The notes under the pieces were generated by a model. That model was not told where the DNA came from. It made no database searches and worked only from the letters and a program-made list of their open reading frames with translations. From Acidimicrobiia bacterium (GTDB lineage Bacteria; Actinomycetota; Acidimicrobiia; Spongiisociales; UBA5794), in contig JAOZRW010000009.1 in NCBI GenBank assembly GCA_029939995.1, positions 698 to 63,352 of the forward strand: DNA of 62,655 nucleotides, read 5' to 3'. Positions 1,323 through 5,877 of this stretch are shown here, one piece after another (positions within the stretch are counted from its first letter, which is position 1; each line of letters starts with the position of its first letter). Position numbers and translations under genes: made by a program.

Positions 1323-2342
1323 ATGTCCGGGAACAGCATGTTCAGCCTCACCGACGTTGCGATCGTGTCGATCGCGCACGTCACCGCACCGGAGGTCATC
1401 CCCTCATCTCGGTTCGATGAGATCCTGTCCAAGATGTACAGCCGGACCGGGGCCCAGCCGGGTCTGCTCGAGAGCCTCGCGGGAATCGAGGAACGTCGCT
1501 GGTGGCCGGAGGGGTATCTCTTCACCGATGCGGCTGCAGCGGCGGGAGCGAAAGCCCTCGAGGACAGCGGCGTCCGGACCGACCAGATCGGCCTCCTCAT
1601 CGATACGTCGGTCTGCCGGGACCGGCTCGAACCGTCGTCCGCGGTGACCGTCCATCACGCCCTCGACCTTCCCAGTTGGTGCACGAGCTTCGACCTATCG
1701 AACGCGTGCCTCGGCTTCGTCAGCGCCATGCAGGTTGCCGGCAACATGATCGACGGCGGTCAGATCGACTACGCGCTGATCGTGGACGGCGAAGGCAGCC
1801 GGCAGCTTCAGGAGGCGACACTCGAACGGCTCGCCGGTGAAGACTCGACACTGGCGGATCTGTTCGCCGAGTTCGCTTCGCTGACGGTCGGATCCGGCGG
1901 CGCCGCCGCCGTGGTCGGACGGCACTCTGAGAATCCGGGCAGCCACAAGATCGTCGGCGGGATCTCGCGGGCCGACACCAGCCACCATGCCCTGTGCGTG
2001 GGAGACCTGGATCGGATGCGGACCGACACGAAGTCACTGCTCGACGCCGGCCTGCAGCTCTCGAAGGTCGCGTGGATCGACGCCGAGGAGCTCGGGTGGC
2101 TCGACGCAGATCGCTACATCATCCACCAGGTGTCCCAGGTGCACACCCGCATGCTCTGCGAGTATCTGGGCATCGATCAGACGAAAGTACCGCTCACGTT
2201 CCCGACACTCGGAAACGTCGGCCCGGCATCGATCCCCATCACCCTGTCGATGGAGGCCGAGTCACTGAAGGCGGGCGACAAGGTCCTGCTCCTCGGCATC
2301 GGCTCCGGACTCAACACATCGGCCGTCGAACTGACCTGGTGA
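1323..2342 (+). CDS. oleA: OleA-like thiolase / 3-oxoacyl-ACP synthase III family protein (head-to-head acyl-CoA condensation)
   Basis: KAS III-like fold with active-site Cys context SNACLGFVSAMQ and C-terminal GIGSGLNTSAVELTW. Immediately followed by OleB-OleC and OleD homologues. Confidence 0.85.
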   Translation: MSGNSMFSLTDVAIVSIAHVTAPEVIPSSRFDEILSKMYSRTGAQPGLLESLAGIEERRWWPEGYLFTDAAAAAGAKALEDSGVRTDQIGLLIDTSVCRDRLEPSSAVTVHHALDLPSWCTSFDLSNACLGFVSAMQVAGNMIDGGQIDYALIVDGEGSRQLQEATLERLAGEDSTLADLFAEFASLTVGSGGAAAVVGRHSENPGSHKIVGGISRADTSHHALCVGDLDRMRTDTKSLLDAGLQLSKVAWIDAEELGWLDADRYIIHQVSQVHTRMLCEYLGIDQTKVPLTFPTLGNVGPASIPITLSMEAESLKAGDKVLLLGIGSGLNTSAVELTW

Positions 2343-4909
2343 AGCCCGGAGCTGCCGCGCCCGCGGAACTGCCGCCGCCAGGCCTCGACGGCCTCGAACC
2401 TCGTTGGTCCCGGCTGGTCACGACGCCGACGCTCGACGGTGTCGGCCGGACCTGGCACGTGCTCGACAACCGGACGGACGACCCGATCGTCACGTTGCTT
2501 TGCGTGCACGGCAACCCGACATGGTCCTATCTGTGGCGAGATCTGCTTGCCCGGGCACCCTCGAACGTGCGCGTCGTCGCCGTCGATCAGCTCGACATGG
2601 GATTCTCGGAGCGGACCGGCACGGTTCGCCGACTCGCCCAGCGCATCGACGACCTCGAGGCGCTCACCGACGAACTGGGCCTCACAGGCCCGGTCGTCAC
2701 CGTGGCCCACGACTGGGGCGGGCCGATAGCGCTCGGGTGGGCCGAGCGGCACGTCGATCAAGTGACCGGCGTCGTGCTCATGAACACCGCCGTTCACCAA
2801 CCGGAGGAGTCGCACGCTCCCGGGATCATCCGCCTGGTCAGGGCCCCCGGCGTGCTGCGCAGGGTATGTGAGACGACGCCGATCTTCGTGCGGGGAACGA
2901 TGGCGCTCACCCACCCGCGAGTTCCCCGCCCGGTACGGGAGGCATACGAAGCACCGTACCGGAGCGCCGATCGACGCGCCGCGATCACCGCCTTCGTCGA
3001 AGACATCCCTCTCGACGACCGACATCCCAGCCAGTGGGTTCTCGACCGGGTAGCGGCGGACCTCGATCTGCTCGCCGACATCCCCGTTCTACTGCTTTGG
3101 GGCCCCGCAGACCCGGTGTTCTCCGACCTGTATCTCAGGGATCTCGCCGAACGGCTCCCACAGGCAGAGATCCATCGGTTCATCGGCGCCGGGCACCTGA
3201 CGCCGGAGGACGCAGACGTGGCGTCCGCCGTGTTCGCATGGATCGGCCGCAGCGACGAGTCTGCCCCCCCTCCGACACCGGAAGAGAAACGCGTCCCGAT
3301 GTGGGCCAAGATCGATCGCCGGGCCGACGAAGAGGGCGTCGCGATCGTCGAGATGGGGAAGGACGGGCAGCAGACATCCAGGACGTTCAGCGAGTTCGCC
3401 GTCGACGTCCATCGCGTCGCCGCCGGCCTGTCCCTCTTCGGTGTGGAGAAGGGCGACCGGGTGGCGTTGCTCGTGCCACCGGGTATCGACCTCGCCGTCT
3501 GCCTGTATGCCTGTTGGAGGATGGGGGCGGTCGTGGTAGTCGCCGATGCCGGGCTCGGGGCTCGCGGCATGAGCAAAGCGATGGCGAGCGCCAACCCTGC
3601 CTATCTGATCGGAAACACCCGGGCGCTGGCGGCCGCCCGGGCCATGCGATGGCCCGGCATCAAGATCTCGACCGAACCGGTCGGCAACGGCCGCAGGAGA
3701 CTGCTCCACGCGGAGACGACCCTCGACGACCTGAGGGCGTCCGGCGAGGACGCGCCGGAACCCACGGCCCCGGGGTCGGGGGACGTCGGTGCGGTGGGGT
3801 TCACGTCGGGGGCCACCGGCCCGGCGAAAGGCGTCGTCTACCGGCATCACCAGCTCGAAGCGCAGCGCGACGCGCTGATCGATCTCTACGGCATCGGTCC
3901 CGACGACAGCTTCGTCGCGGCATTCGGCCCGTTCGCCCTTCTCGGGCCGGCCCTCGGCATCCCGTCCGTCGTACCGGAGATGAAGGTCACGGAACCGGGG
4001 AGCCTGAGCGCCACAGCCCTTGCGGAGGCGGCGCGCTCGGTCGACGCGACCCTCGTGTTCGCCTCACCCGCCGCGCTGACGAACGTCGTTCGAACCGCCG
4101 GGAAGATGTCGGCGGATCAGATAGCGGTGCTCCGAAGGGCCAGGCTCCTGATGTCTGCGGGTGCTCCGGTGCGGGCTTCGGTGCTCCGATCCATGACCGG
4201 GATCATGCCCGACGCCGAGATGCACACGCCGTACGGGATGACGGAGGTACTGCCGGTCGCCGACATCAGCCTGACCGAGATCGAGCACCTGCCCGGGGGC
4301 GAGGGAGTCTGCGTCGGCCATCCGGTCCCCGGCGTCGACGTGGCGATCAGCAGTCTCGACGAACGAGGCGTCGCCGCCGGCGAACTCAGCGACGAACCCT
4401 TCGTCGTCGGCGAAGTGTGCATCCGGGCGCCGCACATGCGAGACGGCTACGACAACCTCTGGGTGACGGAGAACGACGCATCGCGGCCGGAAGGCTGGCA
4501 CCGAAGCGGCGACGTCGGCCACCTCGACGCCGACGGGAGGCTCTGGATCGAGGGGCGTATCGGACACGTCGTGACGACGCCTTCGGGCCCGGTCACGCCG
4601 GTGGGGATCGAGCATGCGGTCGCCGACCTTCCCGAGGTCGCCCTCGCGGCCGTCGTCGGCGTCGGACCTCCCGGTACCCAGCGGGTCATCGTCGTGCTGG
4701 AACCCGTCGACCGGGTGCCCCGTTCGCGTCTCGCCGATGAGGGTCTGTCCGACCGTGTCAGAGCCTGCGCCGACTCGGTGGACGTCTCCGCCGTTCTCGT
4801 GGTTCCGGAGATTCCCGTGGACAAGCGTCACAATTCCAAGATCGACCGAACGCGGATCGCTCGCTGGGCCGAACGCGTGCTCGGGGGCGGTCGGATGGGC
4901 CCGATATGA
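2339..4909 (+). CDS. oleBC: OleBC fusion: alpha/beta-hydrolase (beta-lactone decarboxylase) plus AMP-ligase-like beta-lactone synthetase
   Basis: GTG start overlaps the oleA stop by 4 bp. N-terminal haloalkane-dehalogenase-like domain (CVHGNPTWSYLWRDLL, nucleophile AHDWGG, GAGHLTPEDA). C-terminal ANL-family domain (GFTSGATGPAKGV, YGMTEVLP, HRSGDVGHLDADGRLWIEGR). Confidence 0.85.
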   Translation: MKPGAAAPAELPPPGLDGLEPRWSRLVTTPTLDGVGRTWHVLDNRTDDPIVTLLCVHGNPTWSYLWRDLLARAPSNVRVVAVDQLDMGFSERTGTVRRLAQRIDDLEALTDELGLTGPVVTVAHDWGGPIALGWAERHVDQVTGVVLMNTAVHQPEESHAPGIIRLVRAPGVLRRVCETTPIFVRGTMALTHPRVPRPVREAYEAPYRSADRRAAITAFVEDIPLDDRHPSQWVLDRVAADLDLLADIPVLLLWGPADPVFSDLYLRDLAERLPQAEIHRFIGAGHLTPEDADVASAVFAWIGRSDESAPPPTPEEKRVPMWAKIDRRADEEGVAIVEMGKDGQQTSRTFSEFAVDVHRVAAGLSLFGVEKGDRVALLVPPGIDLAVCLYACWRMGAVVVVADAGLGARGMSKAMASANPAYLIGNTRALAAARAMRWPGIKISTEPVGNGRRRLLHAETTLDDLRASGEDAPEPTAPGSGDVGAVGFTSGATGPAKGVVYRHHQLEAQRDALIDLYGIGPDDSFVAAFGPFALLGPALGIPSVVPEMKVTEPGSLSATALAEAARSVDATLVFASPAALTNVVRTAGKMSADQIAVLRRARLLMSAGAPVRASVLRSMTGIMPDAEMHTPYGMTEVLPVADISLTEIEHLPGGEGVCVGHPVPGVDVAISSLDERGVAAGELSDEPFVVGEVCIRAPHMRDGYDNLWVTENDASRPEGWHRSGDVGHLDADGRLWIEGRIGHVVTTPSGPVTPVGIEHAVADLPEVALAAVVGVGPPGTQRVIVVLEPVDRVPRSRLADEGLSDRVRACADSVDVSAVLVVPEIPVDKRHNSKIDRTRIARWAERVLGGGRMGPI

Positions 4910-5877
4910 GGGTCCTCGTCACCGGCTCGACGAGCTTGATCGGTCGACACGTCGTCCGCCGCCTCCTCGAGCGCGGCGATACCGTGTGGACGCTCCAGCG
5001 AAGGCCGGGCGATGAACCCGGCGTCGTCGAGCATCTCGGTGACGTCACCGATCGGTCCACGGTGGAACGTGCCGTGGAAAGGGCCGAAGCCGTCATCCAC
5101 CTCGCAGCGCACGTGGCGGCGACCGGCCCATGGTCCCGATTCGCGACGACGAATATCGAAGGGACGCGCAACGTCACCGAGGCCGCGGCGAGCGCCGGCG
5201 TCGGCCGGTTCATCCACGTCTCGTCACCCTCCGTCGCACACGGCGGCGCATCCCTCGTCGGCGCGGCGGCCGAACCGGCCGATCCCGGGAACGCCCACGG
5301 GCCGTACGCGAGGAGCAAGGCCATGGCCGAGATCGTCGCGCTCGATGCCGGGTCGTCGGTGATGCCGGTCGTCGCCGTCCGCCCCCACCTCGTGTGGGGC
5401 CCCGGCGACACACAGCTCATCGGACGGATCGTGGACCGTGCCCGCTCCGGAAGGTTGGCGATCGTGGGAACGGGTGCTGCGCTGATCGACACCACGTACA
5501 TCGACAACGCCGCCGATGCGCTCGTCGCGGCGCTCGATCACGCCCCGTCGATCGGAACCAGGGCACTCGTCGTGACGAACGGCCAGCCGCGGCCGGTTCG
5601 CGAGATCATCGATCGGATCGTCGCAGCGGCCGGACTCGAGCCGCCGCGGATCACGGTCCCGTACCGGGTTGCACACGCCGGCGGTCGGATCGTCGAGCAG
5701 ATCTGGGACCGACGCGGCCGTGACGACGATCCGCCGATGACGTCGTTCCTGGCGGAGCAACTGGGCACGGCCCACTGGTTCGATCAGCGTGAGACCCGTC
5801 GAGTGCTCCAGTGGGAGCCCGAGGTGAGCCTCAACGAGGGATTCCGGCGCCTTCGCACCTGGTTCGAATCGACCTAG
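4906..5877 (+). CDS. oleD: OleD-like NAD(P)-dependent epimerase/dehydratase (extended SDR; beta-keto acid reductase)
   Basis: Rossmann start MRVLVTGSTSLIGRHVVRRLL; extended SDR; start overlaps the oleBC stop by 4 bp. Confidence 0.82.
   Translation: MRVLVTGSTSLIGRHVVRRLLERGDTVWTLQRRPGDEPGVVEHLGDVTDRSTVERAVERAEAVIHLAAHVAATGPWSRFATTNIEGTRNVTEAAASAGVGRFIHVSSPSVAHGGASLVGAAAEPADPGNAHGPYARSKAMAEIVALDAGSSVMPVVAVRPHLVWGPGDTQLIGRIVDRARSGRLAIVGTGAALIDTTYIDNAADALVAALDHAPSIGTRALVVTNGQPRPVREIIDRIVAAAGLEPPRITVPYRVAHAGGRIVEQIWDRRGRDDDPPMTSFLAEQLGTAHWFDQRETRRVLQWEPEVSLNEGFRRLRTWFEST

Follow-up and report, generated by a model that had tools for sequence, protein, structure and literature searches.

The window, meaning the whole 62,655-nucleotide stretch of DNA that was analyzed, is a piece of a 2.55-Mb genome assembly in 208 contigs from a member of the class Acidimicrobiia. 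It carries three adjacent genes on the plus strand: oleA (1323..2342; 339 aa, ATG at 1323), oleBC, a fusion of OleB and OleC (2339..4909; 856 aa, GTG at 2339), and oleD (4906..5877; 323 aa, ATG at 4906). An in-frame TTG at 1320 lies just ahead of the oleA ATG. Neighboring genes overlap by 4 bp at each junction, GTGA at 2339-2342 between oleA and oleBC and ATGA at 4906-4909 between oleBC and oleD, and on re-reading the window we found that the first-pass annotation had the coordinates, the common strand and the count of these features right. The overlap between oleA and oleBC is partly a by-product, because the final codon of OleA is Trp (TGG) and is followed by TGA. Among Acidimicrobiia loci, overlap-compatible junctions were observed at 39 of 48 oleA/oleBC and 43 of 47 oleBC/oleD boundaries, and the order oleA-oleBC-oleD is kept in Acidimicrobiia, Micrococcales and Granulosicoccus. 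The OleB- and OleC-like domains do lie in one 856-aa polypeptide, as first annotated, in a single uninterrupted frame with OleB first. That the fusion is an artifact of assembly was ruled out, since ~30 genomes of the order, independent of one another, have the uninterrupted frame. An inner stop flagged by the search in one locus (L130) was dismissed, as an ORF of 1116 codons spans both domains. Judged by sequence, the three adjacent genes encode what is apparently a complete, intact pathway.

OleA, of which the genome has a single gene alongside FabH, is predicted to be a thiolase-fold (KAS III-like) enzyme with a putative role in the non-decarboxylative condensation of two acyl-CoAs. It passes the NCBIfam model PRK09258 (428 bits against a cut-off of 285), and its top matches among solved structures are 3row and PDB entries akin to it (E 3e-82), a group that we take to be Xanthomonas campestris OleA. 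OleA was aligned to the 3row chain; the catalytic Glu/Cys pair, on which the first-pass annotation had staked the assignment, is present as E103 and C129, together with H268 and N298. All 40 of the 40 OleA sequences compared match the pattern published for OleA, EPxx[AS]x(14,18)DxxNACL, which in the window protein reads EPSSA...DLSNACL. In the OleA tree, the window protein and 39 other OleA sequences form one clade (support 100/100) apart from FabH and other KAS III enzymes.

The OleB domain of the fused protein (2441..3253, plus strand; residues ~35-305) is an alpha/beta hydrolase of the haloalkane-dehalogenase type with an Abhydrolase_1 match, and its matches among solved structures are HLD-like chains, with up to 114 bits. 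Residues N59, D125 (nucleophile), W126, D258 and H286, whose roles we assume by analogy to haloalkane dehalogenases, are all invariant in 39 fused homologs. A Pro-rich linker containing SAPPPTPEEKR (3254..3304, plus strand; residues ~306-322) leads to the OleC domain (3305..4906, plus strand; residues ~323-856), a predicted ANL-superfamily beta-lactone synthetase. Its motifs, a P-loop FTSGATGPAKG (488-498), D725, R740 and RHNSKIDR with K834, are likewise invariant in the 39 homologs. AlphaFold2, run on the whole 856-aa chain with a 39-sequence alignment, returned a confident two-domain model (mean pLDDT 90.8, pTM 0.89) in which the linker is poorly modeled (pLDDT 66-74 around residues 301-320, with a weak spot near residue 310). 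Foldseek comparison of the OleC half with the PDB yielded ANL enzymes, with amide bond synthetases and MenE at the top.

The best models for the OleC half were the broad PRK09274 family and two OleC models of NCBIfam, OlefBLtnSynXan (290 bits against a curated cut-off of 900) and OlefBLtnSynShew (230 against 850), narrow lineage-specific equivalogs in which we do not claim membership; the OleC and OleD equivalog models of NCBIfam center on Xanthomonas and Shewanella. Among ordinary FadD models, the top score was only 172 bits. OleD is an extended SDR with a TGSTSLIG motif and YxxxK as Y134/K138. Its best NCBIfam model is OleD (2-alkyl-3-oxoalkanoate reductase) at 300 bits, below the curated cut-off of 580, and we regard it as a putative NAD(P)H-dependent 2-alkyl-3-oxoalkanoate reductase. 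Taken by Pfam alone, all of these proteins have only generic domains, and they could be read as ordinary lipid enzymes (a FabH, an alpha/beta hydrolase plus acyl-CoA ligase and an SDR) that are Ole-like by superfamily only. This is very improbable, as the four functions are contiguous in a conserved order, and OleC, like OleA with respect to the genome's FabH, falls in its own Ole clade: 19 OleC sequences, including that of the window, were united with support of 100/100, to the exclusion of 10 other ANL ligases encoded in the window's genome. The first-pass annotation had named a grouping of the ANL domain with ordinary acyl-CoA ligases as a refuting outcome; the OleC clade rules out such a misassignment. 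Overall, families, residues and the OleA and OleC clades all agree with its reading of an olefin/beta-lactone pathway.

We propose, with a probability of roughly 90%, that the locus encodes the standard head-to-head long-chain olefin pathway ending in a cis-alkene. In this pathway, oleA, oleBC and oleD would form a translationally coupled operon. From two fatty acyl-CoAs, OleA would make a 2-alkyl-3-oxo acid by condensation, and OleD would reduce this to its 2-alkyl-3-hydroxy counterpart. In the fused protein, the OleC half would then adenylate the hydroxy acid and close it to a cis-beta-lactone, and the OleB half, tethered by the short linker, would decarboxylate this lactone, giving a cis internal alkene, which probably remains in the membrane. 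Each reaction and product is modeled on characterized homologs (PMC7158056, PMC7064751); the order of the genes, their intact frames, the catalytic residues, the assignment to families and the conservation within the class were read directly. Olefins are produced by Micrococcales having the oleA-oleBC-oleD arrangement (PMC7158056). The pathway is not essential, because many genomes of the order are without the cluster.

The first-pass annotation had left the choice between an alkene and a retained beta-lactone, and our data favor the former. OleACD clusters without oleB do yield beta-lactones (PMC7064751), and the cluster could in principle make and keep a product of the lipstatin or nocardiolactone kind if its OleB domain were inactive or slow. 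However, OleB is present here, and fused, with catalytic residues that do not vary across the 39 homologs, and no P450, glycosyltransferase or NRPS tailoring genes lie beside the operon within the window. We consider retention of the lactone unlikely, and the alkene the likelier product because OleB is there with its residues intact.

Upstream of oleA and divergent from it lies a gene of the PorA/PgfA family (PF11271; 67-1227, minus strand), and downstream of oleD are a VanW-domain protein and an FTR1/EfeU iron permease. Among 14 control genomes, the PF11271 family was observed in Corynebacterium glutamicum only. The PorA/PgfA-like gene sits beside oleA in five genomes of the window's genus, its own and four others, and not beyond. 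This adjacency could suggest that OleA and OleD supply a mycolate-like 2-alkyl-3-hydroxy acid to the envelope in connection with the PorA/PgfA-like protein, with OleBC removing the excess. We consider this highly unlikely. The neighbor scores 118, under the PgfA cut-off of 160, and across the 138 genomes of the order the PorA family is present in 16, ole in ~38 and both in 5 (~4 expected by chance), all five in the genus of the window. A meaningful link between ole and PorA/PgfA was rejected because the adjacency is limited to one genus and co-occurrence in the order is not in excess.

Of 296 sampled genomes of the class Acidimicrobiia, 48 have a fused OleBC or a fragment of one, as do 33 of the 138 genomes of the window's order; among named relatives, a MAG of Acidimicrobiia comes nearest, with 85% OleBC identity. 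One family of the same order (f2) has split oleA, oleB, oleC and oleD genes in five genomes (L031-L035; G002-G006), in the order A-B-C-D wherever the contig is long enough, so this single order contains both the fused and the split type. Sampling across the phylum added further families, f26 and f27 with fused forms, f49 and f56 with split ones. A 2020 survey named Micrococcales as the sole Gram-positive order with ole clusters (PMC7158056); the predicted genes in the genome collection as it now stands contradict this. The fusion itself is a published form, as the first-pass annotation had said, described in Micrococcales and, for the first time outside Actinobacteria, in Granulosicoccus (PMC7064751). 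What is new here is the distribution of the fused OleBC and its apparent single origin, the pathway and the fused form being already known. In the open-access papers searched, we found nothing that connected Acidimicrobiia with olefin biosynthesis, and we know of no chemistry on it for any member of the class.

Several genomes in these samples call for comment. The MAG labels of four loci (L087, L070, L046 and L052; Bifidobacterium breve and Acidobacteria) clash with the ole trees or with kinship. L046 and L052 correspond to genomes of the window's order (G128 and G056) and so appear to be mislabeled; L070, which groups with Arthrobacter, may reflect contamination or transfer. Two genomes of family f76 (G623 and G627) had OleC-like matches of 34-35% and, at the cut-off applied, no match to OleB; from these matches they are possible beta-lactone producers. 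In families f80 and f83, oleBC-oleD is present in genomes that are without an OleA orthologue (L204/G661, L205/G669 and L206/G725). In 3 of the 3 genomes examined, genes for another KAS III (sharing ~30% identity with OleA) and for a protein resembling fatty-acyl-AMP ligases were found on the opposite strand within ~10 kb, and two of these KAS III sequences, when placed in the OleA tree, fell outside the OleA clade. These loci could represent a variant of the pathway in which a different enzyme performs the condensation.

Trees of OleB plus OleC placed all fused sequences on one side of a fully supported branch (100/100) and all split sequences on the other, and the split OleB/OleC from the window's own order were also outside the fused clade. 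A tree of the OleC domain alone, rooted on ANL ligases, agreed (fused branch 100/99). The window OleBC belongs to one clade with the Micrococcales and Granulosicoccus fusions, in which the deepest branches are Acidimicrobiia, with moderate support. Four Granulosicoccus-type sequences nest in an Acidimicrobiia clade, both by OleBC (96/97) and by OleA (100/99). Two alternative groupings were rejected, Granulosicoccus and Micrococcales OleBC as one clade (AU p = 1.7e-5) and the Acidimicrobiia fused sequences forced together alone (AU p = 2e-4), with p-values that are optimistic because the first tree had in part prompted the groupings tested. We hypothesize that the fusion of OleB and OleC arose once, plausibly in Acidimicrobiia or a close ancestor, that the Micrococcales fusions are a derived offshoot, and that Granulosicoccus received its whole cluster from Acidimicrobiia; long-chain olefins would thus be an unrecognized trait of many uncultured Acidimicrobiia. 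To this history as a whole we give an even chance.

If the enzymes act like their homologs, head-to-head olefin synthesis would be more widespread among Gram-positives than the published survey says, and common among uncultured Acidimicrobiia. The origin of the fused enzyme, apparently a single one, can now be assigned a position among named lineages. Because Micrococcus luteus accepts swapped ole operons, the question lends itself to a simple direct test.

Among known systems, the cluster of Micrococcales (Micrococcus, Arthrobacter and Kytococcus; OleBC is KEGG K25044) is similar to that of the window in gene order, in the B-then-C fusion and in catalytic residues. The OleBC proteins share ~48-52% identity, but the window is from another class and a separate clade, and its OleBC, at 856 aa, is shorter than most in Micrococcales (up to ~904). 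The OleA-OleBC-OleD architecture of Granulosicoccus (Gammaproteobacteria) is also alike, with OleBC identity of 48-53%, although that copy is apparently horizontally acquired, belongs to another phylum and in some members has ~100 bp between oleBC and oleD. The split type of Xanthomonas and Shewanella, which includes that of family f2, shares the four functions and the A-B-C-D order with the window; in contrast, its OleB and OleC are separate genes with ~32-42% identity to the corresponding halves, and they lie outside the fused clade.
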